From assembly GCF_004362525.1 (NCBI RefSeq), contig NZ_SNXS01000004.1, positions 620,001 to 684,000 of the forward strand: a DNA stretch of 64,000 nucleotides, read 5' to 3'. Both the position numbers and the translations under genes were made by a program. This DNA is from Roseateles toxinivorans (GTDB lineage Bacteria; Pseudomonadota; Gammaproteobacteria; Burkholderiales; Burkholderiaceae_C). Shown here in pieces: positions 6,424-22,404 of this stretch (the stretch's first letter is position 1; the number at the start of each line of letters is the position of its first letter). The notes beneath the pieces were generated by a model. It was not told the origin of the DNA, ran no database searches, and saw only the letters and a program-made list of their open reading frames with translations.

Positions 6424-6438
6424 GGGCACGGCACTTGC
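6424..6438 (+). promoter_or_regulatory. Sigma-54 (-24/-12) promoter of rpoN (autoregulation)
   Basis: GGGCACGGCACTTGC contains the full GGCAC and TTGC elements at 10-base GG-to-GC spacing. The predicted transcription start is near 6450, just before the ribosome site GGAGGA at 6461-6466. If functional, this rpoN gene is transcribed by its own product. Confidence 0.72.
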
Positions 6439-6476
6439 GTCATTCGGCTGACACGACACCGGAGGACTTTCCCAAG

Positions 6477-7880
6477 ATGAGTTCCATGGCCCTGCACGCG
6501 GATCACAGACAGCAGCAGACGCTGTCGCCCAGGCTGCAGCATGCGGTGAAGCTGCTGCAGCTGTCGTCCCTGGAATTTGCCCAGGAGCTGAACCAGCTGA
6601 TGGGCAGCAATCCCTTTCTCGAAAGCGAGGAGGCGGAGGCTGAGGTGGAGGCGCAGGCCGACAGCGACTCGGAGGTCGAGCCGCAGGATGAGACCGAAGA
6701 CGAACGCGACCTCTGGCAGGCCGAGGGTGTGGCCTCCGGCCAGTCGGGTGCCGGCGGCGAGGGCGGGGACACCAGGGCGCTGGACCTGATCGCGATGCCC
6801 GGCTCGCTGGCTCAGCATCTGCATGGCCAGCTGGGCGTGCTGTCGCTGCCGCAGCGCGATGGCCTGCTGGCCAGCGCCCTGGTGGACTCGCTCGATGACG
6901 ACGGCTATCTGCGTTGCGAATTGAGTGAACTGGTGGCCGTCACCGCGCTGTCGCCGCCGGCCCTGCCTGAGGAGTTGCAGATCGCGCTGTGCCGCGTGCA
7001 GTCGCTGGACCCTGCCGGCGTGGCCGCGCGCAGCCTGGCGGAGTGCCTGCTGCTGCAGCTCCAGGTCGTGAGTGATCCGGCTCAGCGTGCGCTGGCACGC
7101 CGCATCCTCAACGAGCAGCTGTCGGCCCTGGCCGCGCGTGACGTGGCCGGCATGGCACGCAGCCTGGGCAGCAGCGTGGCCGGGATCGATGCCGTGTGCG
7201 CCTTGATCCGCCGCCTTGATCCGCGGCCGGGGGCTGCCTTCGGTCATCAGCAGATCCACTACCTGGTGCCGGATCTGATTGCGCGCAAGCTGCGCGGCAG
7301 CTGGACGGTGCAGCTCAATCCCACTGTCGTGCCGCGCCTGCGCCTGAACCAGGGCTATGCCGAGCTGTTCCAGCGCCACCGGAGTGCTCAAGACCATGCC
7401 ATGGCCGCCCATCTGCAGGATGCCCGCTGGACCCTGAAGAACGTGGCACAGCGCTTCTCGACCATTCTCAGCGTCGGCGAGGCCATCGTGCGCCGCCAGC
7501 AGCGCTTTCTGGACTATGGCGTGATGGCCATGAAGCCGATGGGGCTGCGCGAGATTGCCGAGGAGCTGGGGCTGCACGAGTCCACCGTCTCGCGGGTCAC
7601 CAACAACAAGTACATCGCCACTCCGCTGGGCGTGTTCGAGCTGAAGTATTTCTTCTCCCGGGCGATGACCATGGCCAGCGGCAACAGCTGCTCGGGCACG
7701 GCGCTGCGTGGCCTGGTCCAGGACATCATCGAGGCCGAGAAGCCCGGCGCGCCGCTGTCCGATGCCGCCATCACCCGCCAGCTGGCCCGCCAGGGCCTGG
7801 TGGTGGCGCGGCGCACCGTCACCAAGTACCGCCAACTGCTGCACATTCCCGCAGTTGGGCGCCAGGGCCGACCGGCCTGA
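6477..7880 (+). CDS. rpoN: RNA polymerase sigma-54 factor
   Basis: The start ATG at 6477 lies 10 bases after GGAGGA. The 467-residue protein has the three regions of sigma-54: a Gln/Leu-rich activator-binding region I (LSPRLQHAVKLLQLSSLEFAQEL, residues 15-37), an acidic region II (about 55-95), a core-binding region, a helix-turn-helix (near 365-385, LGLHESTVSRVTNN), and the RpoN box ARRTVTKYRQ near the C-terminus. The usual neighbours of the housekeeping rpoN in betaproteobacteria (lptB and the hpf/ptsN group) are absent, so this is probably an additional copy, as is common in Burkholderiales. A sigma-54-type promoter in front suggests autoregulation, and four more sites of the same type lie within the surrounding 18 kb. 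Confidence 0.96.
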   Translation: MSSMALHADHRQQQTLSPRLQHAVKLLQLSSLEFAQELNQLMGSNPFLESEEAEAEVEAQADSDSEVEPQDETEDERDLWQAEGVASGQSGAGGEGGDTRALDLIAMPGSLAQHLHGQLGVLSLPQRDGLLASALVDSLDDDGYLRCELSELVAVTALSPPALPEELQIALCRVQSLDPAGVAARSLAECLLLQLQVVSDPAQRALARRILNEQLSALAARDVAGMARSLGSSVAGIDAVCALIRRLDPRPGAAFGHQQIHYLVPDLIARKLRGSWTVQLNPTVVPRLRLNQGYAELFQRHRSAQDHAMAAHLQDARWTLKNVAQRFSTILSVGEAIVRRQQRFLDYGVMAMKPMGLREIAEELGLHESTVSRVTNNKYIATPLGVFELKYFFSRAMTMASGNSCSGTALRGLVQDIIEAEKPGAPLSDAAITRQLARQGLVVARRTVTKYRQLLHIPAVGRQGRPA

Positions 7881-7888
7881 GGGGCGGT

Positions 7889-7917
7889 GCTGAGTCGGCG
7901 CGTCGTCGCCGCTCAGC
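7889..7917. terminator. Hairpin between rpoN and the convergent gene
   Basis: GCTGAG/CTCAGC and CGGCG/CGCCG form an 11-base-pair stem with one bulged T and a 6-base loop. There is no T-run, and it overlaps the stop of the minus-strand gene. It could act as a bidirectional terminator; support is only the structure and its place between convergent genes. Confidence 0.45.
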
Positions 7918-9880
7918 CCAGCGCGCATCCGGCCGCCAACCCCGGGAAGGCGCGCTCGACGGTGCTGCCGTCGGCCCGAGGTGCGTGCAGCAGCGGCCAG
8001 TCGCCGCCCTTGAGCACCAGCACGGCCAGATATCTGAAATGCTGGCTCCGGGTCTCTTCGAAGCCCTGGCCGTCGGTCACCAGCAGGGCGGCAGGGTGCG
8101 GCTGTGAAGGCGGCAGCTCGATATGCAGACCAACACCGGGCCTGATGAGCCCACGGATGGCCGCAATCAGCGCCTGCGGGCTTGGGGTCGGGGACATCTC
8201 TTCGCGGCGCTCCTGGTTGATGATGACGATCTGCGCACCGGGGTGGGCGATCGCCGCCCAGAGCGCGGCGACCTCGGTATCGTCGAGCTGCTCCGGCAAC
8301 TGGTCCACCATCGAGCCGGATGCGTCGATCACGACCATCGGCCGCATTGGCAGCGGCCGGGCCTCAAGGCTGGCGCGGATGTCGGCGCTCAGCCGGGCGA
8401 CATCGTCACGGCGGCTGGGTTCGACATGGCCGAAGGGTCGGCAGCGCAGGACCAGCTCATCCGCGGCGCCGACCCGGCTCGTGGCGATCAGCTCGCGAAG
8501 GCTCGCCTCCAGGTCGGGGGTCATCGGCCCGTAGTTGGCCAAGGCGACGACAGCAGCAGGGTGCACCGCTGCATAGTCGTGCAGTGCGGCGGCGAAGTTG
8601 CTCCGACTGGGCTTGCGGTACTGCTTGGCTTCGAGCACGTAAAACACCTGCTCCTCGACGCCGGTCTGTGTCAGCACATAGTCGGGCTGTATGCCTTCCT
8701 GACGGCTCTTGCCCTGCAGACTCACGCCGTTGCGGCCGGTGTACAGCTCCGCGACCAGCTGGATCGGCGCGGCGGCGCCATCAATGTCGGCGACATGGGT
8801 GGCCTTGAAGGCGAACTCCAGTCGGCCATCGACCGGGTGCAGGCTGAAGCGCAGCGGCGGCGGCACGGCTGCCTCCACGACGGTGACCAACCAGACGCTG
8901 TACAGCTGGTGGCGCTGCTGCCACCAGGGCAGGTCCAGCAGGTCCTCGAGCTGCCGAACGGGATCGCGGTGAATGCTCTGCTCAGAATGCTGGGCGATGG
9001 CCGCTTCGATCTGCCAGGCCAGTTGGGCTCGCAGCGGCGAGGGAGCCCGATGACGCTCGAACAGCTTCCAGCAAAGGCGCAGCAGCTGCCAGGCCAGCAA
9101 GTCCGACTGGGCGTAGCCGAAGGTCTGCTCGCCCCACTCCAAGATGCTGCTGCGCAGTGTGCCGCCGGGTTCGGGCGAATCTCCGTCACCAGCCGCCGCG
9201 AGCATGCGCTCCCGGTCGGCATACCGTGCCATGCGCGAGAAGGACAGGCCGGCGGCCATCAACACAGGCGCCATGGCCTGGCGCAACTCGTTGCCGGCGT
9301 CCGCCGGCGGCAGCGGCGCCGGCCGGGTGTAGGGCCAGCCATTCGGGGCCAGGGCCTCGACGAGCCAGGCCCGCGCCGGCGCATCGACTGGCAGGGCGTG
9401 GAAGTCTTGGTCCTGCGGGGGCAGACAACTCAGCAACACCTCACGCAGCTGCCACAAATCCCGCTTGTCGAACAGGTGCACGGCCACCGCTTGTTGCAGG
9501 GCCTGATGGCTGGCCATCGCGCACCGGAAGTGATGGGCGTCGAAACCCAGCTTGCCCTCGGCCTGCCCGAAGTCGAACTGCACCAGCATGCCGTCATTGC
9601 TGCCCTTGACGCCGTGGCGCTCGAACATCGCTAAGGTTTCGCTGAGCATCAGACCGAAGGGCTCCAGGGCCGTCAGCACCGCAATCAGAAAGCTGCTGAC
9701 ATCGATCGGCCGGCTGGCCAGAAAGGTCCCGATGTCACTGCCGGCAGGAACGCCCAGCGAGTGGCACAGGCTGGCGACCAAGCTGGCGTCATGGCTGGCC
9801 GGGGCTAGGCCGCCCTTGCGGTTCAAGAGCTCCCAGAGGGTCAGGGCATCGGTGACGGGCGTCGATGAGGTGTTGTCCAT
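7913..9880 (-). CDS. Unfamiliar protein with PD-(D/E)XK nuclease-like and vWA/MIDAS-like regions
   Basis: The start is placed at the ATG at 9878-9880 (MDNTSSTPV); the ribosome site is weak and a longer reading would enter the ndvB 3' end. I do not recognise a named family for this 655-residue protein. Residues 1-340 are mostly helical with no clear motif. Residues 345-450 show the pattern of PD-(D/E)XK nucleases: E378 in VAELYTG, P399-D400 in IQPDYVL, and E417-A-K419 in VLEAKQY, as in the nuclease part of McrC/DUF2357-like proteins. Residues 513-605 resemble a von Willebrand A domain: VVIDASGSM (MIDAS D519, S521, S523) and LLVTDGQGFEET (T602, D603). There is no signal peptide or membrane helix. 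It lies 50 bases downstream of ndvB on the same strand. Function is unknown; a DNA-related or defence role is only a hypothesis. Confidence 0.8.
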   Translation of the reverse strand: MDNTSSTPVTDALTLWELLNRKGGLAPASHDASLVASLCHSLGVPAGSDIGTFLASRPIDVSSFLIAVLTALEPFGLMLSETLAMFERHGVKGSNDGMLVQFDFGQAEGKLGFDAHHFRCAMASHQALQQAVAVHLFDKRDLWQLREVLLSCLPPQDQDFHALPVDAPARAWLVEALAPNGWPYTRPAPLPPADAGNELRQAMAPVLMAAGLSFSRMARYADRERMLAAAGDGDSPEPGGTLRSSILEWGEQTFGYAQSDLLAWQLLRLCWKLFERHRAPSPLRAQLAWQIEAAIAQHSEQSIHRDPVRQLEDLLDLPWWQQRHQLYSVWLVTVVEAAVPPPLRFSLHPVDGRLEFAFKATHVADIDGAAAPIQLVAELYTGRNGVSLQGKSRQEGIQPDYVLTQTGVEEQVFYVLEAKQYRKPSRSNFAAALHDYAAVHPAAVVALANYGPMTPDLEASLRELIATSRVGAADELVLRCRPFGHVEPSRRDDVARLSADIRASLEARPLPMRPMVVIDASGSMVDQLPEQLDDTEVAALWAAIAHPGAQIVIINQERREEMSPTPSPQALIAAIRGLIRPGVGLHIELPPSQPHPAALLVTDGQGFEETRSQHFRYLAVLVLKGGDWPLLHAPRADGSTVERAFPGLAAGCALG

Positions 9881-9930
9881 ATCTCGGGGTTTGATGTGAC
9901 GGTGCCTACGGCGGCAACAGTGTGCCTGCG

Positions 9931-12900
9931 CTATGCCCGGTTGTCCTCCTTCGCCCTGGGGATACACCCCGCGTTGGGCGGCAGGCGCAGCAGCGCCTCA
10001 TGCGTGAGCCCGTCGTCGCGCAGGGGCAGGCTGATCGTTGCTTGCGGCTGGCCATCCATCGTCAGGGCGGCCTTCGTGCCGGTCTCCACTTGCTCCACCA
10101 TCACCTGGTAGTGGCTGCTCCGGTAGCGGTAGCTGAACTTGAAGCCCGGCCAGTGCGCCGGCAGACGCGGCGCCAGCCGCAGCCAGGCCTGACCGTCACG
10201 GTGCTCCAGGTGAATGCCCAGCAACTGCTCGATGATCAGCCGGTACATCCAGCCGGCCGAGCCGGTGTACCAGCTCCAGCCGCCGCGCCCGACGTGGGGG
10301 GCGACGCTGTAGACGTCGGCGGCCATCACATAGGGCTCGACCTTGTAGACGTTCAGCTCGGCCGGCGTGCGGCCATGGTTGACCGGGTTGATGATGTCCA
10401 GCAGCTGCCAGGCGCGTTGCACGTCGCCAAGCTCGGCAAAGGCCATGGCCGCCCAGATGGCGCCATGGGTGTACTGGCCGCCGTTCTCGCGCACGCCGGG
10501 CACATAGCCGCGGATATAGCCGGGGTCGGGGCCGGCACCGTTGAACGGCGGATCCAGCAGCTTGACCAGGCCCTGAACGGGGCTGACCAGCCGCACGGCC
10601 AGCGCGTCCATCGCCTGGCGCGCGTGGGCAGGCGGCGCGACGCCGGACAGCACGGCCCAGCTCTGCGCGATCGAGTCGATCTGGCACTCCGGGCTTTCGC
10701 TGGAGCCCAGCGGCGCGCCGTTGTCGAAAAAGGCGCGGCGGTACCAGGCGCCGTCCCAGCCATGCAGCTCCAGCTGCTGCGCCAGGGCCTTGCGCTCGGC
10801 CTCGCAGCGCACGGCCAGTGCATCGTCGTCCAGGCTCTGAGCCAGCGGGGCGAACTGGCGCAGAACCTCGCACAGGAAGAAGCCCAGCCAGACGCTCTCG
10901 CCCCGGCCCTCGTGGCCGACGCGGTTCATGCCGTCGTTCCAGTCGCCGCCATCCATCAGCGGCAGGCCGTGCTCGCCCAGGCGCAGGCCATGCAGCAGCG
11001 CGCGCCTGGCGTGCTGGTACAGCGTGCCCGACTCGCTGGAGCGCATCGGCAGCTCGAAGTTGGATTCGTCTTGCGGCGCCACCGCGCGGCCGTCCAGGAA
11101 GGACACGGACTCGTCCAGGATGCTGCGGTCGCCGGTGCATTCGAGGTAGCGGCTCAGCCCGAGCGGCAGCCACAGATAGTCGTCCGAGATATGGGTGCGC
11201 ACGCCGCGGCCCACCGGCGGATGCCACCAGTGCTGAACATCGCCCTCGACGAACTGGTGTGCCGCGCACAGCAGCAGCTGCTCGCGCAGCAGGTCGGGGC
11301 GGGTGTGCACCAGGGCCATGGCGTCCTGCAGCTGATCCCTGAAACCATAGGCTCCGCCTGACTGGTAGTAGCCGCTGCGCGCCCACATCCTGCAGGCCAG
11401 GGTTTGATAGACCAGCCAGCCATTGGTCAACTGGTTCAGCGCCGCATCGGGCGTGTGCACCTGCACGGCACCCAGCGCCTCGTCCCAATGCCGCTGCACG
11501 GCCTGCAAAGCCATCGCCGCCGCGCCCGGCAGCCGCATCCTGTGTACCAGCTGCTGGGCTTCATCGACATTGCGCGCCGCACCGAGGCGGAACACGATCT
11601 CGCGCGTTTCGCCGGGGTCCAGGTCCAGCGGCGCCTGGATCGCTGCGCAGGGGTCCAGCGCCGCGCCGACGCGGCCCAGCAGCCGTTGGCTACGCAGGGC
11701 CATCGGGTCGACCAGGCTTCCATTGCGGCCGATGAACTCGCTGCGGTCGCAGGTCATGCTGCCGGCGCGGTGGTGATGGGCATCGACATCGAAGAAGGCC
11801 ACCCACTCCGGGTAGTCATTGCTGTAGGGGTTGCGCACCATCAGGGGGCCGGCCTCGCCCGACATCGAGGTGACCAGGTGGGGCGCAGTGGCCTCGCGCA
11901 CGGCGCCCAGCACCCATTCGACATAGCCGGTGGCCGAGAGGCGACGTGGCCGATCGGAGCGATTGGTGAGACGCAGTACGCTGAACTTGACGGCCGCGTC
12001 CACCGCAACAAACACCTCCAGCTCGCTGGCGATGCCGTCCACCGTCCGCTCGAAGCGGCTGCAGCCGAAGCCGTGGCGGGTGGTGCAGGTGGCCGTCGTG
12101 TCAGCGCGGCTCGGCGACCAGACGTGGCCGGTTTCCTCGTCGCGCAGATAGAAGACCTCGCCGCAGGCGTCGGTGACCGGGTCGTTGTGCCAGGGCGTGA
12201 GGCGGAACTCGTGGGCGTTCTCGAACCAGGTGTAGGCCGAACCGGCCTCGGAGATGACGCTGCCGAAGCCCGGGTTGGCGATCACGTTCGACCAGGGCGC
12301 AGGCGTGGTCTGGCCCGGTGCCGGCGCAATAACGTACTCACGGCCATCGGCACTGAAGCCGCCCAGGCCGTTGAACAGGGCCAGATCGTCGCCGCGTGAG
12401 GCCGAAAGCTGGCCAGGCAGCGGGCCCGGCTGTGGGCGGTAAGCGCGGCTGGCCACCAGAGGCTGCTGGCGTCGCTCATGGCCGGCACGCGCCGTCGCGG
12501 CATTGTTGCTGCGCCGCTCCATACGCGGGCCGCGCTCCAGCTGCTCGGCCAGGCTGCCGCGCTGGTCGCTGAACACGGCGCGCGCCACCGACTGCAGCAG
12601 CACCCGGTCTTCGTACGAGATTTGCTCGGCATGGCGCACGAAGATGCCGCCCGGCCGGTCAATCACATGGGCCTCGACGCCGGCCGACACCAGGCCCAGG
12701 ATCTGCTCATGCAGCTGCTGGCGGTAAATGTCGCGCTCCTCGTTCCAGACCACCAGATCAACGGCCAGGCCCTTCAGTCGCCACCAGGCATGGGCCTGCA
12801 CCAGCTGGCGCACCAGCTCTATATGGGCGATGTCGCCGATCTGCACCAGCACGATGGGCAGATCGCCCGAGATCGTGTAGCCCCACAGGCCCGACTGGCC

Positions 12901-15900
12901 GCGGCGGTTCTGCTTGATGATGGCCGGGTCGGCGCGCAGGGTGCTCTGGTTGAAGATCACCGCGCTGGCCAGGCGGGCATACAGCTGCACCTCGGCCTCG
13001 CTGCTGTTGAGCTGGCGCTGCACCACCTGGCTGTGCGTCCAGGCCAGCTCGAACACCCGCTCGGCCAGGCGCCGGTCGCGGTATTTCTCGACCAGGGCCA
13101 GGCAGCCGTCGCGGCTGTCGGCCACGCCGATGACGATGTCCACGATGATGCTCTGGTCCGGCCCTAGGGTGACCACGCAGCGGCTGGCCGCCACCGGGTC
13201 CAGCACCGAGCCGGCGGTGTTCGACAGCGGCCCGCGCTGGCGCAGCGCCAGCGGCTCCTGCAGGCTGCCGCCACGGCCGATGAAGCGGGCGCGGTCGGTC
13301 TCATGCGATACCGTGCCGCCCTTGCTGCCGCGCATGCCGTGCACGGCCAGCAGCTGCAGCATCCAGGGTGAGGCGTCATTGGAAGCGCGCGGGCGGCGGT
13401 TGCACAGCAGGGCGCCGGTCTCGGCCAGGATCTCGGTCTGCACGAACAGCTTGCTGAAGGCCGGGTGCTGCATATCGCTGGCCGCCGTGGCCAGCACCAC
13501 CTCGGCATAGCTGGTGATCTCGATCTGGCGCGTGCTGCGGCTGGTGTTCTTGATGCGCACACGCTTGAGCTCGATCGCATCCTCGGGGGACACGGCGATC
13601 TCGGTATGCGTCTCGATGCCATGGTCGCGGCGCCGGAACTCGGCCCGGCCCTCCGAGAAGATGGCCTGGTAGTGGCCGCCGGTGCTGCGGGTCGGCTGGT
13701 GGGCGGTGGACCACACCGCGCCGCTGTCAACGTCGCGCAGGTAGCAGAAGCTGCCCGAGGCATCGCAGGTGCTGTCTTCGCGCCAGCGGGTCACGGCCAT
13801 GTCCCTGTGTCGGCTGTAGCCGCCGCCGGCCTGGGTCACCATCACGTGGTAGCTGCCATTGGACAGCAGATGCACCTCGGGCGCCGGTGTGTTGGGGTCG
13901 GTGAAACAGCGCACCGGCACCTCGCTGCCGGAGGTGGGGCTGCGCAGCGCCGCCCGCTCGGCCGCAGCCGCATGGGGCACCACGCCCTTGGGCACCCGCT
14001 CGTGCAGCAGGGGCAGGGTGGCCAGCAGGCGCGGGTCGGCCGCGAAGAACTGCTGCATGCGCGGGCCGCGCAGCACCTGGGCCATGGCCAGCAGGCCCAT
14101 GCCCTGGTGATGGGCCATATAGGAACGCACCACTGCCTGGCTCTGGCCGCGAGGCAGGCGCAGCGGCGTGAAGTCAACCGCCTCGTGAAAGCCATAGATG
14201 CCGCTGGCGCCCAAGGCTTGCAGCCGCTGCAGGTTCTCGCAGGCCGCCACCGGCTCCAGCAGCAGGGCCATCTGGCTGGCGTAGGGCGCCACCACCAGGT
14301 CCTCGGCCAGGCCCCGCTTCAGGCCCAGGCCGGGCACGCCAAAGGCGCGGTACTGGTAGTTCAGCGCCGCATCGGTGGCGTTGTAGCCCGACTCCGAGAT
14401 GCCCCAGGGCACGCCGCGCTCGCGGCCATACTCGATCTGCCGGCCCACCGCCGCCATGCAGCTTTGGTCCAGCAGGGTATGGGCGTCGCTGGGCATCAAG
14501 AGCATGGGCATCAGGTACTCGAACATCGAGCCGCTCCAGGACATCAGCACCGGCTCGCCATTGACGGTGCTGAGCTGGCGGCCCAGGGCAAACCAGCTCT
14601 CCTGCGGCAATTGGCCCAGGGCGATGGCCGCGAACACGCCCAGCCGCGCCTCGGAGGCGAGCAGATCGTAGTAGCCGGTGTCGGCGCTGTGCTCGTCCAC
14701 GTTGTAGCCAATCACCATCTGGTGACGGAAGCTGTCGTACAGAAAGCCCTGCTCCATCTCGCATAGTGCGCCGGCGCGGGCGGCGAGCGCCTCGAGCCGG
14801 GCCAGGCAGGCCTGCGCGGCCTCGCTGGCATCGACCCGCCCGGCGAGTTCGCGCAGGGTCGCATCACCCGCCAGATGCGGGTGCTCGAGCGGCGTATCGG
14901 CATCTGGCAACAGATCGGCCAGCTCGTCCAGCGCCGCCAGGCATTGCAGGGTCAGGCGTTGCGCCCAGCGCTTGGCCTCGCCGGTCAGTGCCTGCAGGGC
15001 CACGGCCGCCAGCAGCTCGGTGCAGGCGGCATGCAGGCTTTCCAGCGCCTGGCGCAGGCCGCCCAGGGTGACGATGGGCGTGTCGCACCAGCGCTGCAGC
15101 AACTGCTCGAAGGCCGCCAGCGGCAGGGTGGATTCGCTCTCGGTCAGGGCCTCGCGCAGCAGCGCATAGGTGTCGGCCAGGCCGGCGCACCAGGTCGGCG
15201 TCAGCAGCGACTCGTCGGCCATCGTCAGCAGGCCACCGCGCAGCGTCAGCAGCTGGGCCATCAGATTGCCGCTGTCCACGGTGGACACATAGCGGGGCCG
15301 CAGCGGCTCCAGGGTCTGGGTGTCGTACCAATTGAGAAAGTGGCCGCGGTGGCGCTCCAGGCGCTCCAGCGTGTCGAGTGTGGCGCCGATGCGCGCCAGC
15401 ATCTGGCTCAAGGTGATGTAGCCCAGGTCATGGGCCGTAAGATTGGCCAGCAGCGCAAAGCCGATATTCGTCGGCGAGGTGCGGTGGGCGATGCGGGGCA
15501 CCGGGTGCTCCTGCAGATTGTCGGGCGGCAGATGGTTGTCTTCGGCGCCGACGCAGGTGTCGAAAAAGGCCCAGGTGCGGCGCGCCATGGCGCGCAGATA
15601 GCGCTGCTGCGCCTGGCTCAGCGCCGGGCGGCGGGCGCGCAGCGGACGGTCCAGCCACCACATCAGCAGTGGCGAGGCCAGCCACAACAGCAGCATCGGT
15701 GCGGCCTGCGGCAGCGCCTCGGGGCGCAGCCGCAGCAACGCGGCAGCCGCGAGTGCCGCAACCAGCGGCCCCAGCCACATGCGTGCGGCTGTCTGGCCCA
15801 GGGCCCTCAGGCTGCCGGCCGGCGCACCCTGGCGCACATCGGCCGAGGCCGTCCATTCGAGCAGATTGCGCTTGGTGGCGACGCTGCGCCACAGCGTCAC

Positions 15901-18717
15901 CGCGATCGCATGCAGTGTGTAACCGGCCTCGTGCGGCAGGCAGGCCAGCGTCTGCACGAGCTGCAGCAACTGCTGGCCGAACGGCTGCACGCCGACATGG
16001 CGGGGATTGAGTCCGGTCAGATTGAGCGGGCGCTTCAGCAGGTCCAGCAGCTGCGCGGTCAGCGGCACCAGGCCGATGATGAGCAGCACGCGCACCGTCC
16101 ACATGCCCGGTTCGGGCAGGGCCAACCAGCCGATCAGCAACAGGCTCAGCAGCACGGCGGGGCCGAGGCTGCGGCGAAGGTTGTCAAACAGCTTCCAGCG
16201 CGACAGGGCGGACAGAGGATTTAGGGGCCGGTCTGGCAGCAGGTACAGGCGCGCACGCAGCCAGCCCAGCAACTGCCAGTCGCCGCGTATCCAGCGGTGG
16301 CGGCGGGCCACGTCGGCGCCGTAGCGCAGCGGCGCCTCTTCCATCAGCTGCACATCGCTGAGCAGGCCGGCGCGGGCATAGCACCCTTCGAGCAGGTCGT
16401 GGCTGAGGATGCGGTTGTCGGGCAGCTGTTCGCCCAGCGCGTACTCGAACGCATCGACGTCGTAAATGCCCTTGCCGATGAAGGAGCCCTCGTCGAACAG
16501 GTCTTGATAGACGTCCGAGACGGCGCGGGTGTAGGGGTCGATGCCGGGCTCGCCGCCATGCAGGCGGGCATAGCCCGAACGGGCGGTGCTGGGCAGGCTC
16601 AGGCCGACGCGGGGCTGCAGGATGGCATGGCCCTCGACCACGCGACGCGCCTGCACGCCGCTGCCGAAGCGCGGGCGGTTCAGCGGGTGCGCCATGCTGG
16701 CCGCCAGCTGCAGGGCGCTGCCGCGCGGCAACTGGGTGTCGGTGTCCAGGGTGATCACATAGCGCACCGCGGCCAGGGCGCTGCGGTCGCCCACCAGGTG
16801 CGAAAAGGCCTCGTCCGGGCCGGCATTGGCGCGGCCGCGCAGCAATGCGTTCAGATCGGCCAGCTTGCCGCGCTTGCGCTCGCGGCCCATCCAGTGCCCC
16901 TGACCCGGGTTCCAGCGCCGCGGCCGGTGCAGCAGCAGAAAGGGCGCGCTGCCGCCGCTACCGGCATAGCGGACATTCAACGCAGCGATACCGGCGCTGG
17001 CCAGGGCGATCAGCCCGGCGTCCTCGGGCCGGTGCTCCTCGCGGGCATCGGCCAGATCGGTCAGCAGGGCGAACTGCAACTGGGCATCGCGGTTGGCGAG
17101 GAAGCGCAGCTCCAGGCCTTCAAGCAGGGACTCGATGCCGGCCGGGCTGCTCAGCATCGTCGGCACCACCACCAGTGTGCGGGCACTGGCCGGCAGGCCC
17201 AGCGCATAGTCCATGCGCGGCAGCACCTGCGGCCGCACGAACAGGGTGACGACCCAGTTCAGCAGTGCCAGCGACAGCTGCCAGGTGGCCAGCAGCAACA
17301 GCAGACCCAGGCCCACCAGGGCCCAGGGTGGCAGTTGCGCACCCAAGGCCACTTTCAGGAAGGGCCCGGCCGCCAGCAGAAGGGCCCCAGCCAGGCCGGC
17401 ACCGACATAGGCGCGCAGCGGCATGGCCCAAGCCGGATGCCGCGCCCGCCAGCGGCTGACGCGCAGGCCCAGCAACTGCTCCAGTGCCGAGCGGCCGTTG
17501 CCCAGCAGGTAGTAGCCGACATGGCCCTGGCGCTCCAGCCCCTGCGCATCGCTGAGCCGCTGAGTCGCCAGCTCGGCCAGCTCGACCGCATGGCTGGCCA
17601 CCTCCAGCTCGCTGCGGCCGCTGCGCCGCGCCAGGCGCTCCACCGCCAGGCGGTAGGCGTCGCGGGTGATGAAGTCCATCTGCTCGTAGACCGCACTGGG
17701 GTCACGGCGCAGGGTCTGCTCGACATTACTCAGGTTCTCGACGAACTCGGGCCAGTTGATGGCGCCCAGCAGGCGCAGGCTGCCTATGCTGTTGGCCACC
17801 GAAACCTGGCTGGCCGCCTGCGACTGGCTTTGCAGATGCACCATCTGCTCGATGCTCTGGCCCTGGTCGGCCAGCCGCTGCTCGACCCAGGTCAGTGGCA
17901 GCGCCAGCTGCGCCCCCTGGCCCTGCAGTCGGCGCGCAAAGGCCGCCACAAAGGCGCTGCTGAGCGTGGGCGCGGCGCGCGCCATGTCGGCAATCACCAG
18001 TATCAGGTCGCTGGAGCGCAGCTCCAGCGCCTCCAGCATGGACTGGGCCCAGCCGTCGGCGGCGTCGCGGTCCTGCCGGCCCAGCGAAACGCTGACGCCG
18101 ACACGGCGCAGGTTTTCGATCAGCGCCAGTCGCAGCATGATGGGAAAGGCCCACAGCTCGCCCAGGGTCAGCGGCTGCACGCTTTGGTAGGCGGCGACGA
18201 AGCGGCTCAGCGTGCCGCGGCTCAGGCTGCCGTCGGCATGGGCTATCGCCTGCAGCGCCAGCTCATAGACGCGCGGCCGGCCCACACCCTGGGCGTCGCC
18301 GCTGCGTGCGGCCAGCCGCGGCAGCTCGCGGCTGTAGCCCTTGGGCAGGTGGCGGCGGGCGGTGCGTATCTCTTCCTCGATCAGATAGAGGTTGTCGAGC
18401 AGCCACTCGGCCGCCGGGGTGATGGGCAGCTCGGCCGCCACGGCCTCGGCCAGCAGCTTGCCCACGCCGGTGAGCACCTCTTCATTGGCGCGCAGCCGGG
18501 CCAGCAACTGGTCGGGGCGGCGCTGCGGGTCCAGCACATGCTGGTGGGCCAGGGCCAGGCCATGGGCGGCCATCTGGTCGGCGCTGAACAGCGCCTCACG
18601 CAGCGGCGCCTCCTCGCGGCCCAGGTCCAGCCGGCCCAGGCTCAGGCGTCCCCATTGCCGCCACTGACCCGCTGTCGCGGTATGCCAGACCCGTGCCGCC
18701 AAATTGCCAACCGCCAT
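9931..18717 (-). CDS. ndvB: Cyclic beta-1,2-glucan synthase (NdvB/ChvB/Cgs type)
   Basis: At 2,928 residues this matches the size of rhizobial NdvB and Brucella Cgs (about 2,800-2,900). The ATG at 18,715-18,717 follows GGAGGATGGTTTG. Order of parts: a soluble N-terminal region (1-430), membrane helices near 435-515, a GT84 glycosyltransferase domain with the DxD-like ITLDTDTQLP near 655 and RRHRWIRGDWQ near 800, more membrane helices (about 860-1000), a glycoamylase-like domain (GISESGYNATDAALNYQY near 1440), and C-terminal GH94 phosphorylase modules with RDQLQDAMAL near 2460 and the catalytic-acid motif GGDWNDGMNRVG near 2590. The enzyme builds, elongates, trims and cyclises glucans from UDP-glucose at the inner membrane; the product sits in the periplasm and affects osmotic adaptation and surface traits. 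A sigma-54-type promoter precedes it. Confidence 0.93.
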   Translation of the reverse strand: MAVGNLAARVWHTATAGQWRQWGRLSLGRLDLGREEAPLREALFSADQMAAHGLALAHQHVLDPQRRPDQLLARLRANEEVLTGVGKLLAEAVAAELPITPAAEWLLDNLYLIEEEIRTARRHLPKGYSRELPRLAARSGDAQGVGRPRVYELALQAIAHADGSLSRGTLSRFVAAYQSVQPLTLGELWAFPIMLRLALIENLRRVGVSVSLGRQDRDAADGWAQSMLEALELRSSDLILVIADMARAAPTLSSAFVAAFARRLQGQGAQLALPLTWVEQRLADQGQSIEQMVHLQSQSQAASQVSVANSIGSLRLLGAINWPEFVENLSNVEQTLRRDPSAVYEQMDFITRDAYRLAVERLARRSGRSELEVASHAVELAELATQRLSDAQGLERQGHVGYYLLGNGRSALEQLLGLRVSRWRARHPAWAMPLRAYVGAGLAGALLLAAGPFLKVALGAQLPPWALVGLGLLLLLATWQLSLALLNWVVTLFVRPQVLPRMDYALGLPASARTLVVVPTMLSSPAGIESLLEGLELRFLANRDAQLQFALLTDLADAREEHRPEDAGLIALASAGIAALNVRYAGSGGSAPFLLLHRPRRWNPGQGHWMGRERKRGKLADLNALLRGRANAGPDEAFSHLVGDRSALAAVRYVITLDTDTQLPRGSALQLAASMAHPLNRPRFGSGVQARRVVEGHAILQPRVGLSLPSTARSGYARLHGGEPGIDPYTRAVSDVYQDLFDEGSFIGKGIYDVDAFEYALGEQLPDNRILSHDLLEGCYARAGLLSDVQLMEEAPLRYGADVARRHRWIRGDWQLLGWLRARLYLLPDRPLNPLSALSRWKLFDNLRRSLGPAVLLSLLLIGWLALPEPGMWTVRVLLIIGLVPLTAQLLDLLKRPLNLTGLNPRHVGVQPFGQQLLQLVQTLACLPHEAGYTLHAIAVTLWRSVATKRNLLEWTASADVRQGAPAGSLRALGQTAARMWLGPLVAALAAAALLRLRPEALPQAAPMLLLWLASPLLMWWLDRPLRARRPALSQAQQRYLRAMARRTWAFFDTCVGAEDNHLPPDNLQEHPVPRIAHRTSPTNIGFALLANLTAHDLGYITLSQMLARIGATLDTLERLERHRGHFLNWYDTQTLEPLRPRYVSTVDSGNLMAQLLTLRGGLLTMADESLLTPTWCAGLADTYALLREALTESESTLPLAAFEQLLQRWCDTPIVTLGGLRQALESLHAACTELLAAVALQALTGEAKRWAQRLTLQCLAALDELADLLPDADTPLEHPHLAGDATLRELAGRVDASEAAQACLARLEALAARAGALCEMEQGFLYDSFRHQMVIGYNVDEHSADTGYYDLLASEARLGVFAAIALGQLPQESWFALGRQLSTVNGEPVLMSWSGSMFEYLMPMLLMPSDAHTLLDQSCMAAVGRQIEYGRERGVPWGISESGYNATDAALNYQYRAFGVPGLGLKRGLAEDLVVAPYASQMALLLEPVAACENLQRLQALGASGIYGFHEAVDFTPLRLPRGQSQAVVRSYMAHHQGMGLLAMAQVLRGPRMQQFFAADPRLLATLPLLHERVPKGVVPHAAAAERAALRSPTSGSEVPVRCFTDPNTPAPEVHLLSNGSYHVMVTQAGGGYSRHRDMAVTRWREDSTCDASGSFCYLRDVDSGAVWSTAHQPTRSTGGHYQAIFSEGRAEFRRRDHGIETHTEIAVSPEDAIELKRVRIKNTSRSTRQIEITSYAEVVLATAASDMQHPAFSKLFVQTEILAETGALLCNRRPRASNDASPWMLQLLAVHGMRGSKGGTVSHETDRARFIGRGGSLQEPLALRQRGPLSNTAGSVLDPVAASRCVVTLGPDQSIIVDIVIGVADSRDGCLALVEKYRDRRLAERVFELAWTHSQVVQRQLNSSEAEVQLYARLASAVIFNQSTLRADPAIIKQNRRGQSGLWGYTISGDLPIVLVQIGDIAHIELVRQLVQAHAWWRLKGLAVDLVVWNEERDIYRQQLHEQILGLVSAGVEAHVIDRPGGIFVRHAEQISYEDRVLLQSVARAVFSDQRGSLAEQLERGPRMERRSNNAATARAGHERRQQPLVASRAYRPQPGPLPGQLSASRGDDLALFNGLGGFSADGREYVIAPAPGQTTPAPWSNVIANPGFGSVISEAGSAYTWFENAHEFRLTPWHNDPVTDACGEVFYLRDEETGHVWSPSRADTTATCTTRHGFGCSRFERTVDGIASELEVFVAVDAAVKFSVLRLTNRSDRPRRLSATGYVEWVLGAVREATAPHLVTSMSGEAGPLMVRNPYSNDYPEWVAFFDVDAHHHRAGSMTCDRSEFIGRNGSLVDPMALRSQRLLGRVGAALDPCAAIQAPLDLDPGETREIVFRLGAARNVDEAQQLVHRMRLPGAAAMALQAVQRHWDEALGAVQVHTPDAALNQLTNGWLVYQTLACRMWARSGYYQSGGAYGFRDQLQDAMALVHTRPDLLREQLLLCAAHQFVEGDVQHWWHPPVGRGVRTHISDDYLWLPLGLSRYLECTGDRSILDESVSFLDGRAVAPQDESNFELPMRSSESGTLYQHARRALLHGLRLGEHGLPLMDGGDWNDGMNRVGHEGRGESVWLGFFLCEVLRQFAPLAQSLDDDALAVRCEAERKALAQQLELHGWDGAWYRRAFFDNGAPLGSSESPECQIDSIAQSWAVLSGVAPPAHARQAMDALAVRLVSPVQGLVKLLDPPFNGAGPDPGYIRGYVPGVRENGGQYTHGAIWAAMAFAELGDVQRAWQLLDIINPVNHGRTPAELNVYKVEPYVMAADVYSVAPHVGRGGWSWYTGSAGWMYRLIIEQLLGIHLEHRDGQAWLRLAPRLPAHWPGFKFSYRYRSSHYQVMVEQVETGTKAALTMDGQPQATISLPLRDDGLTHEALLRLPPNAGCIPRAKEDNRA

Positions 18718-18784
18718 CAAACCATCCTCCGACCCTTGCGGGCACCATTCATGCGGGTGAGACGTTCACCCATGACCCGACAGG

Positions 18785-18856: not shown

Positions 18857-20470
18857 TCAAGTGGCGAGCGGCAGGGTGACGACGAACTCGCTGCCCTGGT
18901 CCTGGCCGCCACTGCGGGCCAGCACGCTGCCGTGATGGGCTTCCACCAGATTGCGCACCACCGCCAGGCCTATGCCCAGGCCCCGGTTCGGATGGGGCCA
19001 GGCCTGCGGTCCCTGCACGAACAGGTCGAAGATGTGCGGCATCGCCTCGGCCGAAATACCGATGCCGGTATCGGCGATACCGATGCAGGCCACCCCACCC
19101 AGCGACTGCACGGTCAACGTGATGGTTGCGCCCTCGGGCGAGTATTTGGAGGCGTTCTCGAGCAGATTGCTGAACACCTGGGCCAGCCGCACCGGGTCGG
19201 CCAGCACCGGCAGCGGGCCGGGCAGCGGCGGCATCGCCAGGGTCTGGCGGCGAGTCAGCATCGCCGGGCGGCAGCTGTCGATGGCGGCGCCAAAGACCTC
19301 AGCCAGATCGATGCGGCTGCGCTCGAGCCGGAACTTGCCCACGCCGACGCGCGAGCCATCCAGCAAATCGTCCACCAGCCGGGCCATATGGGCCACCTGG
19401 CGCTCGATGATGATCTTCAGCCGCGTCATCAGCGCGGCGTCGTGGCGGCCCTTGTCCAGCAGTTCGGCGGCGGTGCGTATCGGCGCCAGCGGGTTGCGCA
19501 ACTCATGGGCGACGATGGCCAGGAACTGGATCTGGCGCCGGTGGGCGACTGCGGCCTGCGCCTCCAGATCGCGTGCCAGCATGGCCGAGAGCACCAGCTG
19601 CTCGTTGGCCTCGCGCAGGTCACGCATGCGCGGTTCGTGATCGACCGCTGGCGTGGCGAGCAGGCGCTGCACCCGGGGCAGCAGATCGGCGCCGTAGCGG
19701 CCGGCACTGGCGCTGTCGGCCGCCAGTTCGGCGTGCATCTGGAAGCCCCCCGGCTCGCGTTTCTTCGCGTGGTACATGGCCTCGTCAGCGCTCTTGATCA
19801 GGGCTGCGGCGTCCAGCCCGTCCTCCGGATAGACGCTGATGCCGACGCTGGCCGAGATGCGAAACAGCAAGTCCTCGATGTGGCAGGGCATGGACAGCGA
19901 GCGCAGCATCTTGCCGGCGATCAGTGCCGCATCGGAGGCGTGGGCCACCTCGGCCAGCAGCACCAGGAACTCGTCGCCGCCGTGGCGGCTGACGGTGTCC
20001 GAGTCGCGCACCACCGACTCCAGGCGCCGCGCCGCGAGCTGCAGCACCTCGTCGCCTACGGCATGGCCCAACGTGTCGTTGATCTGCTTGAACTGGTCGA
20101 GGTCGACGAACAGCACCGCCATGCGGGTCGCCCGCCGCCGCGCCAGGCCGATGGCCTTGTCCAGCCGGTCCAGCATCAGGCCTCGGGTGGGCAGCCCGGT
20201 CAGCGGGTCGCGCTGGCTGGTGCGGGCCAGGTCATCAAGGTTGCTGACCGCGGTCTCGGCGATGCTCTCGGCATGCAGGGCCGCCAGCACCAGTTGTTCA
20301 TTGGCCTCCAGCAACTGCGCGCCGCGCTGGTTGTTGTACTCCTGCTGCAGCTCCTGCAGATCTCCGCGCAGTCGGGCAAGTTGCGCACGCACGTCGTCCG
20401 CCTGACTTTGCAGCAACTTGAGCGTGCGTTGCGCCTCGGCCGCCTTGCGTGAGTCAGACAGGTCGGTCAC
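18857..20470 (-). CDS. GGDEF-histidine kinase fusion protein
   Basis: The gene starts at a GTG (20,468-20,470), 24 bases after the KaiC-like gene; no ATG fits better. In the 537-residue protein a coiled coil (10-70) leads to a GGDEF domain (88-235) with an intact SRHGGDEF active site (GGDEF at 164-168) and a product-inhibition site R155-x-x-D158. A second coiled coil (285-315) leads to a histidine-kinase core with phospho-acceptor H322 (AHELRNPLAP), an N-box (NLLENASKYS), and the G-boxes DTGIGIS and GLGIGLAVV. The helix EANEQLVL occurs before both domains (55-62 and 288-295). There is no membrane helix and no sensor domain, so input probably comes from the KaiC-like partner. The protein could make c-di-GMP and phosphorylate a response regulator; the partner regulator is not in this operon. 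Confidence 0.9.
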   Translation of the reverse strand: MTDLSDSRKAAEAQRTLKLLQSQADDVRAQLARLRGDLQELQQEYNNQRGAQLLEANEQLVLAALHAESIAETAVSNLDDLARTSQRDPLTGLPTRGLMLDRLDKAIGLARRRATRMAVLFVDLDQFKQINDTLGHAVGDEVLQLAARRLESVVRDSDTVSRHGGDEFLVLLAEVAHASDAALIAGKMLRSLSMPCHIEDLLFRISASVGISVYPEDGLDAAALIKSADEAMYHAKKREPGGFQMHAELAADSASAGRYGADLLPRVQRLLATPAVDHEPRMRDLREANEQLVLSAMLARDLEAQAAVAHRRQIQFLAIVAHELRNPLAPIRTAAELLDKGRHDAALMTRLKIIIERQVAHMARLVDDLLDGSRVGVGKFRLERSRIDLAEVFGAAIDSCRPAMLTRRQTLAMPPLPGPLPVLADPVRLAQVFSNLLENASKYSPEGATITLTVQSLGGVACIGIADTGIGISAEAMPHIFDLFVQGPQAWPHPNRGLGIGLAVVRNLVEAHHGSVLARSGGQDQGSEFVVTLPLAT

Positions 20471-20494: not shown

Positions 20495-21982
20495 TCAGTC
20501 ATCATTGGCCCCGTTGACATGGGCCGGTGGCCGCGGCCGCCGGGTCGGCTTGCCGCCCAGCAGGCCCTCGTAGTTGGGCAGCATCTCGCCCACCTGGATG
20601 CCCTGGTCGTCGATGTTGAACAGGTGCAGGGCCTTCGAATGGGCACTGGCGCGCAGCTTGACGACTGCCATCACCCGTTCCAGGCTGCTGCCCACCTCGA
20701 CATAGCGCTGCACGATGATGGCATCGGTCAGGAAGGCCGTGCCGTAGGGGCTGAAGCGCAGGTCACTGAAACGGTCTTCCAGCTCGGATGTCATCATCAC
20801 CGTGACGCCGGTGGAGGCCAGCGCCGCCACCAGACGCGCCATCGCTTCGCGATAGTCGGAGCGGAAGGTCGGCGCCAGCGCCAGCTCGAAGCCCGACAGC
20901 GAGTCGATCACCACACGCGTGGCCTTGAGCCTACCGATCTCGGTGATCAGAAGCCCTGCAATCTCATCGACTGACAGCCCCGGTGCACGGGTATCCACCA
21001 CGCCGACCTTGCCGTCGCGTATCAACTCGGCCATTTCACGACCGCGCGATTGGGTGGGGCGCTGTTCAAAGGCGGCGATGACGCCGGTCTCGCCTTGGCG
21101 CGCCCCCTCGGCCAGGAAGGCTGCCGCCATGATGCTCTTGCCCGAGCCCGACGGCCCTGCCACCAGCAACGAGTAGCCGCAGGGCAGGCCGCCCCCCAGC
21201 ATTTCATCCAGACCCGTCACGCCCATCGACAGGCGCGCTGGCGCCGGCGCGTCCACGGCCACCTCGGCGGGGAGCGGCAGCTGCGGCGGCGCGAACACAT
21301 GGATGCCGCTGGAGGTGATGCGGAAGGTGTGCAGCCCCGGCAGGGTGGGCTGGCCGCGCATCTTCATGATTTCCATCTTGCGCACCATCGAATTGCCCTG
21401 AACGCTCTGGCGCAGCCAGATCAGTCCGTCGGACACGGTGAAGACCGGATTCGGCTCGGTATCGTTGAAGTATTCGCCGATCAGAAAGGTGGTGGCCTGC
21501 CAGCTGGTCATCAGCACGCCCAGGTTCTGGATGAAGCGCTGCAGACTCAGGTAGTTATGGCCCTCGCCTTCGCTGGCCAGGATGACCGAGCGGAACGAGT
21601 CAACGAACACCAGGCCCGGGCCGCGCGCCTCGACCTCCTCGACGATGCGCGACAACACCTTGTCGAGATCACCGCTGACCATGTCATCGGCCAGGTTGAT
21701 GAAGCGGATCGATTTGTTCAGCTTGTCGAGGTCGAAGAAGTCGAACTGCTGCTGGTAGCGCAACATCTTCAGTGGAGGCTCGCCGAGCACGGTGAAGTAC
21801 AGCGCCGGCCGCTCTGGCGTGGCCAGCGCAAACATGATCTGGTGCGCGAGGGTGGTCTTGCCACAGCCCGGTGTGCCCGCGATCAGATTGAACGAAAACT
21901 CAGGCAAACCGCCGCCAAGGATTTCGTCCAGGCCGGGTACGCCCGTTGCTAGGCGTTGAATGTTTGCTTTGGCAGTGGTCAT
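20495..21982 (-). CDS. Two-domain KaiC-like ATPase lacking the clock phosphosites
   Basis: The 495-residue protein consists of two RecA-like KaiC domains: CI with Walker A GTPGCGKT (36-43) and CII with GPSGSGKS (276-283); VVIDSLSG (357-364) is the CII Walker B. The start ATG overlaps the previous stop codon (ATGA at 21,979-21,982). Compared from memory with cyanobacterial KaiC, the phosphorylated Ser431-Thr432 align with A416-F417 here (segment PYGTAFLTDAIIVQRYVE), and the paired catalytic Glu residues appear as single Glu (E68 in CI; E306 followed by Gln in CII). No kaiA or kaiB is present. It is therefore probably a signalling KaiC paralogue working with the downstream GGDEF-kinase rather than a clock oscillator. 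Confidence 0.9.
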   Translation of the reverse strand: MTTAKANIQRLATGVPGLDEILGGGLPEFSFNLIAGTPGCGKTTLAHQIMFALATPERPALYFTVLGEPPLKMLRYQQQFDFFDLDKLNKSIRFINLADDMVSGDLDKVLSRIVEEVEARGPGLVFVDSFRSVILASEGEGHNYLSLQRFIQNLGVLMTSWQATTFLIGEYFNDTEPNPVFTVSDGLIWLRQSVQGNSMVRKMEIMKMRGQPTLPGLHTFRITSSGIHVFAPPQLPLPAEVAVDAPAPARLSMGVTGLDEMLGGGLPCGYSLLVAGPSGSGKSIMAAAFLAEGARQGETGVIAAFEQRPTQSRGREMAELIRDGKVGVVDTRAPGLSVDEIAGLLITEIGRLKATRVVIDSLSGFELALAPTFRSDYREAMARLVAALASTGVTVMMTSELEDRFSDLRFSPYGTAFLTDAIIVQRYVEVGSSLERVMAVVKLRASAHSKALHLFNIDDQGIQVGEMLPNYEGLLGGKPTRRPRPPAHVNGANDD

Positions 21983-22404
21983 TGCGGGGTGTCCTGCACG
22001 GCTTGGCCGCTCAAAGGGTTGTGCCAAACGAAACCGATCATTCTCTCGGTCAGCGATGCGCCGATCAACTGGCTCAAAAGGTCGTGGAAAGCGGAGAGCA
22101 GGGCGGTAGCAGCTGCCGTTGCTTCGGTGCTGGCTATGGCCGCCAGCGCCCGGTGCAATGCGTTGAAGTCACCCGGCTGCAGCGCGCCCTCGTAGGCGGC
22201 CGACAGGCACGGATGGGCGGCGCGGGTCAGGTACAGACTGCGCTTGTAGAGCGCGGCCACACCTCGCTGGCCGACAATGGGCGACAGCGCCGCATCGATT
22301 TGCTGCCACAGGGCCAACACCACTGCGGCCACCTGCGGTGCATCGACGGCCTGGTCGTTCAGATGACCGAGCGCCGCTGGGGGGGTAAGCGCCTCACTGG
22401 GCAT
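21979..22404 (-). CDS. Small helical protein of the KaiC-like operon, function unknown
   Basis: The ATG at 22,402-22,404 (MPSEALTPP) has a GGAA ribosome site; an upstream in-frame ATG at 22,494 would add 30 unlikely residues. The 141-residue product is almost entirely alpha-helical, rich in Ala and Leu, with a conserved-looking centre (GQRGVAALYKRSLYL) and no transmembrane segment. It is first of three co-directional genes and coupled by ATGA to the KaiC-like gene, so it may be its regulator or partner. I do not recognise its family. Confidence 0.7.
   Translation of the reverse strand: MPSEALTPPAALGHLNDQAVDAPQVAAVVLALWQQIDAALSPIVGQRGVAALYKRSLYLTRAAHPCLSAAYEGALQPGDFNALHRALAAIASTEATAAATALLSAFHDLLSQLIGASLTERMIGFVWHNPLSGQAVQDTPQ

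Follow-up and report, generated by a model that had tools for sequence, protein, structure and literature searches.

The window considered here, that is, the whole 64,000-nucleotide stretch of Roseateles toxinivorans DNA that was analysed, carries on its minus strand an open reading frame at 7913-9880 that starts with an ATG at 9880, ends with a stop codon at 7913-7915 and encodes a protein of 655 amino acids. By alignment and structure model the product comprises a mostly helical N-terminal region (residues 1-314; 8939-9880) and a PD-(D/E)XK nuclease-like region (residues 315-511; 8348-8938), followed in the structure model by a vWA-like domain (residues 512-650; 7931-8347). Translation of the codons and the alignment place the candidate active-site acid E378 at 8747-8749, the P399-D400 motif at 8681-8686, the E417-A-K419 motif at 8624-8632 and the first MIDAS motif, DASGSM (residues 519-524), at 8309-8326, all as claimed in an earlier sequence-only reading of this DNA. 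The VTDG motif with the second MIDAS aspartate is also present, at residues 601-604 (8069-8080) rather than at 602-604 as first given. Immediately upstream lies an ndvB-like open reading frame of 2929 amino acids (9931-18720), and on the other side the gene is convergent with an RpoN-like open reading frame on the plus strand (6435-7880); both names were assigned by eye. The gap of 50 nucleotides between the gene and the ndvB stop (9931) holds provided that the ATG is the start, an alternative upstream GTG (9967) producing an overlap with ndvB.

In another genome of the same genus (G001), ndvB and rpoN are adjacent without the gene: G001 matches the window at 12144-10075 (90.5%) and at 7887-4963 (86.5%), and between the two matching blocks there are 148 bp in G001 versus 2187 bp in the window. 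The gene was therefore gained here or lost there. Its composition is ordinary (GC 0.679; ndvB has 0.700 and the window as a whole 0.675), and a repeat search of 7700-10200 returned short repeats only (at most 28 nucleotides, mostly imperfect), none readable as the border of a mobile element. By eye the window contains housekeeping genes, with no recognisable IS gene and no defence gene beside the one described here. The adjoining RpoN-like protein (481 residues) is apparently a divergent second copy, being 87% identical to the G001 protein beside ndvB, 73% identical over residues 307-480 to one protein of G013, and 41-47% identical to other RpoN-like proteins in G001, G002, G005, G009 and G013.

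Sequence searches place the protein in no named family, in line with the sequence-only reading, which knew of none. There was no Pfam match above cut-off, no NCBIfam, PADLOC-DB or PHROGs match at E ≤ 1, and no match among PDB sequences at E ≤ 10; a Pfam NarE row (E 0.12, below its cut-off) was taken as chance, and the full-length and vWA profiles, run against PDB sequences, retrieved nothing but weak, unrelated rows. Relatives were nevertheless found at 22 other loci, 18 of them in genomes of four phyla (Pseudomonadota, Bacillota, Bacteroidota, and Planctomycetota) and four on rhizobial plasmids. The 18 genome loci came from a core-alignment search of a collection in which 84,980 species are represented by one genome each, and are a lower bound, because the scan relies on short patterns, while the four plasmid records were found by tblastn. 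Identity to the window protein is 19-27% for the 18 other full-length proteins, with 34% for the closest. Two genome loci, L006 and L011, encode the same protein, and L011 alone was counted; a hit matching 41 residues (L007, E 2e-4) was excluded from the homologues, as was L009, found in the phylum search (E 4.4e-4), where profile positions 103-168 match a larger NTPase-like protein. The latter, from the same phylum as the source genome, is a 1358-residue open frame that weakly matches the surroundings of the nuclease ExK motif and the part beyond it; an NTPase-like stretch bearing a GASGQGKST loop comes next, and the protein may represent a distant nuclease-NTPase fusion.

The family is rare in the sampled genomes and patchily distributed. 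Among 60 relatives of the source organism the only match is the source genome itself, both other genomes of the genus lacking the gene. Broader samples gave matches in three of 399 genomes of the order (including the source genome, and one of them a weak match of 41 residues), one of 369 of the class, again the source genome, and two of 398 of the phylum, the source genome and one doubtful case. The phage records and viral contigs searched yielded no relative. A single family match per genome or record is the rule (22 of 23), the exception being the fragmented Neorhizobium plasmid copy, which was counted as a locus. In this copy (L005 4273-8939, Neorhizobium petrolearium plasmid) the family gene is broken, with IS66 genes between its pieces.

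The residues expected of a nuclease are constant in the family. In an alignment of 19 full-length sequences, comprising the window protein and the 18 genome loci and leaving out the four plasmid proteins, E378, P399, D400, E417 and K419 are invariant, so that the E ... PD ... (D/E)xK motifs of the PD-(D/E)XK nuclease superfamily are conserved family-wide. Also invariant are W16, D31, P74, M78, F118 and D260 in the N-terminal region, P318, W320, Y327, W330, F358, R393 and Q398, and, further on, V415, Y421, F429, D435, Y436, L447, and G451. The AlphaFold model of the full protein (mean pLDDT 76, pTM 0.71) contains a restriction-endonuclease-like fold. In a second look at structure alignments, which cover mostly residues 73-512, 45 of the 50 rows listed are nucleases or VC1899 and five are GTPase entries. 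BsoBI (Z 9.5, 201 residues aligned, 8.1 Å), Can2 (Z 9.1, 140 residues, 4.0 Å), Cdn1, VC1899 (Z 8.0, 131 residues, 3.7 Å) and a chain of the McrBC complex (Z 7.7, 170 residues, 4.2 Å) lead this listing, with Bax1, NucC (Z 6.9, 139 residues, 4.5 Å) and many restriction enzymes lower. Foldseek with the full model gave no E-value below 0.001; Cdn1 and VC1899 head its list, and unrelated proteins such as fumarases and transporters stand among restriction enzymes and integrin domains in the lower rows. Absence from the Foldseek or VIA-align listings was not read as excluding other folds. Judged from this conservation, the family probably consists of active, metal-dependent PD-(D/E)XK enzymes, and the alternative raised earlier, that the nuclease fold is inactive, is unlikely because the active-site residues are fully conserved in all 19 proteins. 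Neither of the outcomes that the sequence-only reading had named as refuting it, lack of the restriction-endonuclease fold or variation at D400, E417 and K419, was observed.

Two types of C-terminal tail follow this nuclease. Fifteen of the 19 proteins have the D-x-(S/T)-x-S and TD..G signatures of the vWA type, and the other four (L010, from Neobacillus, L011, L021, and L027) carry a DLDL[HY] motif with conserved W, G and E positions. D519, S523, T602 and D603 are present in all 15 vWA-type members, and position 521 is Ser in 14 of them and Thr in one. The middle MIDAS Thr is found in 12 of the 15, being replaced by Ser in L026, by Asn in L020 and by Leu in the window protein, which thus has the DxSxS and the second Asp of the complete motif (DxSxS...T...D) with Leu for Thr. 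Metal binding in the window protein is unsure for this reason, and on the same sequence grounds this branch of the family may bind metal only weakly, if at all. When the C-terminal 168 residues were modelled with the 15 vWA-type members (pLDDT 75), the model aligned mostly to vWA and integrin I domains (best Z 5.4, rmsd mostly 4-5 Å, about 100-146 residues aligned), with matches to inter-alpha-inhibitor heavy chain, TFIIH, Rpn10, NorQD, midasin, integrin I and CMG2. Its best Foldseek E-value is 0.004, none being below 0.001, and a weak VWA_CoxE signal occurs in three of the 19 members (best E 0.0032). The conserved residues and structure matches together make the pairing of a nuclease with a vWA domain in one protein, described in the sequence-only reading, a real one. 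Pfam listed nothing above cut-off for the four members with the DLDL[HY] tail, which may resemble DUF2135/YfaP.

By the alignment, the tail is exchangeable between the vWA and DLDL[HY] types. In the tree, one well-supported half of seven rows contains all four DLDL[HY] members together with the window protein, L026 (from Mitsuaria, the closest relative of the window protein) and L019. Accounting for both kinds of tail takes three changes on this tree; no number of exchanges is claimed, because the well-supported branches force one only.

Defence genes are present around several of the relatives. Thirteen of 30 scanned neighbour proteins, spread over seven of the 22 loci, matched PADLOC profiles at E ≤ 1e-50 and 17 fell below this threshold; the 30 were chosen, many of them as promising-looking, from 353 neighbouring open reading frames of at least 70 amino acids, some of which are spurious. 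At 11 of the 22 loci two neighbours at most, or none, were scanned; the locus count is a lower bound. The matches comprise HerA in L010, beside which lie a DUF4297 gene (1.5e-37) and an NsnA/GmrSD-like gene (5e-40), GajA-GajB (Gabija) and MzaC/MzaE (Mza) in L017, pAgo and a Dsr1-like SIR2 protein in L002, a TIR pAgo partner and IetA/IetS in L004, whose island is common to L002 and L004, PDC-M01A (also PtuA-like) in L023, LmuB (Lamassu) in L025 and a subtilase in L024. Weaker signals came from E1-E2 and MBL genes in L016, an MBL gene in L011 and a type IIG-like enzyme in L003, and Pfam added patatin genes in L011, L014 and L019 and an integrase in L023. Two neighbouring reading frames, L013_3545 and L018_7191, were left uninterpreted as apparent antisense artefacts.

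As a control, open reading frames of 350-900 amino acids were taken from 13 of 20 stretches fetched at fixed positions on the chromosomes of 10 relatives of the source genome, which are taxonomically unmatched to the case loci; one of 86, an RtcR-type regulator, reached E ≤ 1e-50. Of the 13 hits on the case side, 10 fall within the same size range. By protein the contrast is strong, with a selected case side; by locus it is seven of 22 versus one of 13, with the case side both selected and from other taxa.

Several relatives thus lie among anti-virus genes, short-pAgo genes among them, and the family is therefore probably a little-known anti-phage weapon. The reading that we favour, at a probability of about 0.6, is that of rare, horizontally moving, metal-dependent PD-(D/E)XK nucleases acting as effectors against phages or mobile elements; of the functions first proposed for the window protein, defence is the one that fits the neighbourhoods of several relatives. 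In such an effector the N-terminal helical region would assemble the nuclease or hold it in check, restraint being exerted by this region or by the tail. The C-terminal module, vWA/MIDAS or DLDL[HY], would bind some peptide or protein as a sign of infection, and this binding would release the nuclease, which might then cut phage DNA or all of the DNA in the cell. More tentatively, the protein may be a single-gene immune system whose MIDAS or DLDL[HY] domain directly senses an invader protein and switches on the fused nuclease; this direct sensor would operate without a MoxR chaperone, a cyclic-nucleotide signal or a guide. The interest of the family lies in its spread across four phyla and in the combination of an intact nuclease active site with either of two sensor-like C-terminal modules. 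Should it prove to be a one-gene defence, comparing the two kinds of tail would reveal how swapping them redirects an otherwise unchanged nuclease, and the family would allow the role of MIDAS domains as bacterial infection sensors to be tested in a simple way.

The gene may instead encode one subunit of a multi-gene conflict system, formed with patatin, HExxH-protease-like and MBL-fold proteins or with IetAS, of which the window copy would be an orphan or have its partners elsewhere. We regard this as rather unlikely. The family gene is the last of a compact run in two relatives: in L011 it follows protease-like, MBL and patatin genes and a 79-residue open reading frame at gaps of 8-12 nucleotides, and in L014 it follows patatin, protease-like and MBL genes with gaps of 67 and 30 nucleotides and one overlap of 7. 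These co-directional sets, with gaps or overlaps of 7-67 nucleotides, look like operons. In a third relative, L019, the gene stands directly after a patatin gene, which overlaps it by 4 nucleotides if the first start codon is used, and in L016 protease-like and MBL genes lie upstream, 1.2 kb away. An S8 peptidase cluster (IetS in L004) is next to or near the family gene in L002, L003 and L004. However, members of the patatin/protease/MBL clusters occur in only four of 22 loci and the S8 peptidase cluster in three, and the window copy stands alone; for these reasons such genes are not obligate partners. Few other neighbour families recur on clustering. The protease call is based on an HExxH motif seen by eye, with no Pfam support. 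The set of HExxH protease-like, MBL-fold and patatin genes closely or directly upstream of the family gene (L011 4703-8777, L014 4922-9100 and, without patatin, L016 3504-7296) is itself a possible uncharacterised defence operon.

The pairing of a nuclease with a vWA domain is not unheard of, since the MoxR-vWA ternary conflict systems of the VMAP, iSTAND and FtsH types are described as using restriction-endonuclease (REase)-fold effectors with vWA proteins (PMC7159879). There the effectors are C-terminal to the vWA domain, MoxR is linked, and a counter-invader role is predicted (PMC7159879). The family shares with these systems the combination of vWA and REase fold, and by analogy the two may work alike, but the family differs in that its nuclease precedes the vWA domain, it has a large N-terminal helical region, and no MoxR is linked. 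Across the 23 genomes or records, and as far as the contigs covered extend, no PF07726 (MoxR) match lies within 80 kb of the family gene, and by this feature the family is not a MoxR-vWA ternary system. PF07726 matched somewhere in 20 of the 23, distances being subject to the limits of short contigs. On the gene's own contig in the source genome the nearest match is 245 kb away; it is at about 97, 120, 85, 158 and 232 kb in L011, L012, L021, L022 and the L004 plasmid, respectively, two of these five matches being weak, and in the remaining genomes or records it is on other contigs or absent. A diverged relative of the ternary systems that has lost its MoxR chaperone, to which the REase effectors and the weak VWA_CoxE similarity might point, is consequently improbable given the lack of nearby MoxR and the reversed domain order. 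Title and abstract-start searches of open-licence PMC texts found no description of a MoxR-free family with a helical N-terminus, a middle nuclease and an exchangeable tail. MIDAS-containing VWA proteins of the TerY type also occur in CoCoNuT defence loci, where some copies lack the middle Thr (PMC11090510); these are separate genes with kinase and phosphatase partners, whereas the vWA domain of the family is fused.

Nucleases joined to a sensor domain are a further point of comparison. Can2, Cdn1 and VC1899, which with BsoBI are among the best-aligning structures, share this arrangement with the family. Their sensor is an N-terminal CARF-type domain, which binds cyclic nucleotides in Can2 and Cdn1. 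The family, in contrast, has a vWA-like tail and no identified CARF region, although the vWA model also aligns weakly with the CARF-type part of Can1/Can2 (Z 4.4). NucC, a small cA3-activated nuclease and an effector of CBASS and type III CRISPR systems, has the PD-(D/E)XK fold in common with the family (Z 6.9), whereas no linked cyclase was recognised among the annotated neighbours of the family loci. In the predicted structure the nuclease part resembles defence effectors like Can2 and NucC by fold only.

A nuclease of DNA repair or recombination with the vWA domain as docking module is very improbable: Bax1 and MUS81 are among the structure matches, and TFIIH subunits among the Foldseek vWA matches, yet the distribution is very patchy, with both other same-genus genomes lacking the gene, and defence genes stood out among the recognised neighbours (repair genes were not sought as such). 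That an inactive nuclease fold acts as a regulator linked to ndvB, as the same-strand position 50 nucleotides downstream might suggest, is hardly credible: the active site is invariant, the site beside ndvB is empty in G001, and blastp detected nothing homologous to ndvB in the 11-20 kb around the 22 other relatives. The link to ndvB is incidental. Linkage was also discarded as a clue on account of G002, where ndvB is followed by an antiporter, with neither the family gene nor an rpoN paralogue. Beyond ndvB, at 18857-20470 on the minus strand, lies a gene for a 537-residue protein with, by eye, a GGDEF domain and a histidine-kinase-like C-terminus, adjoined by a KaiC-like open reading frame (20495-22027, minus strand).
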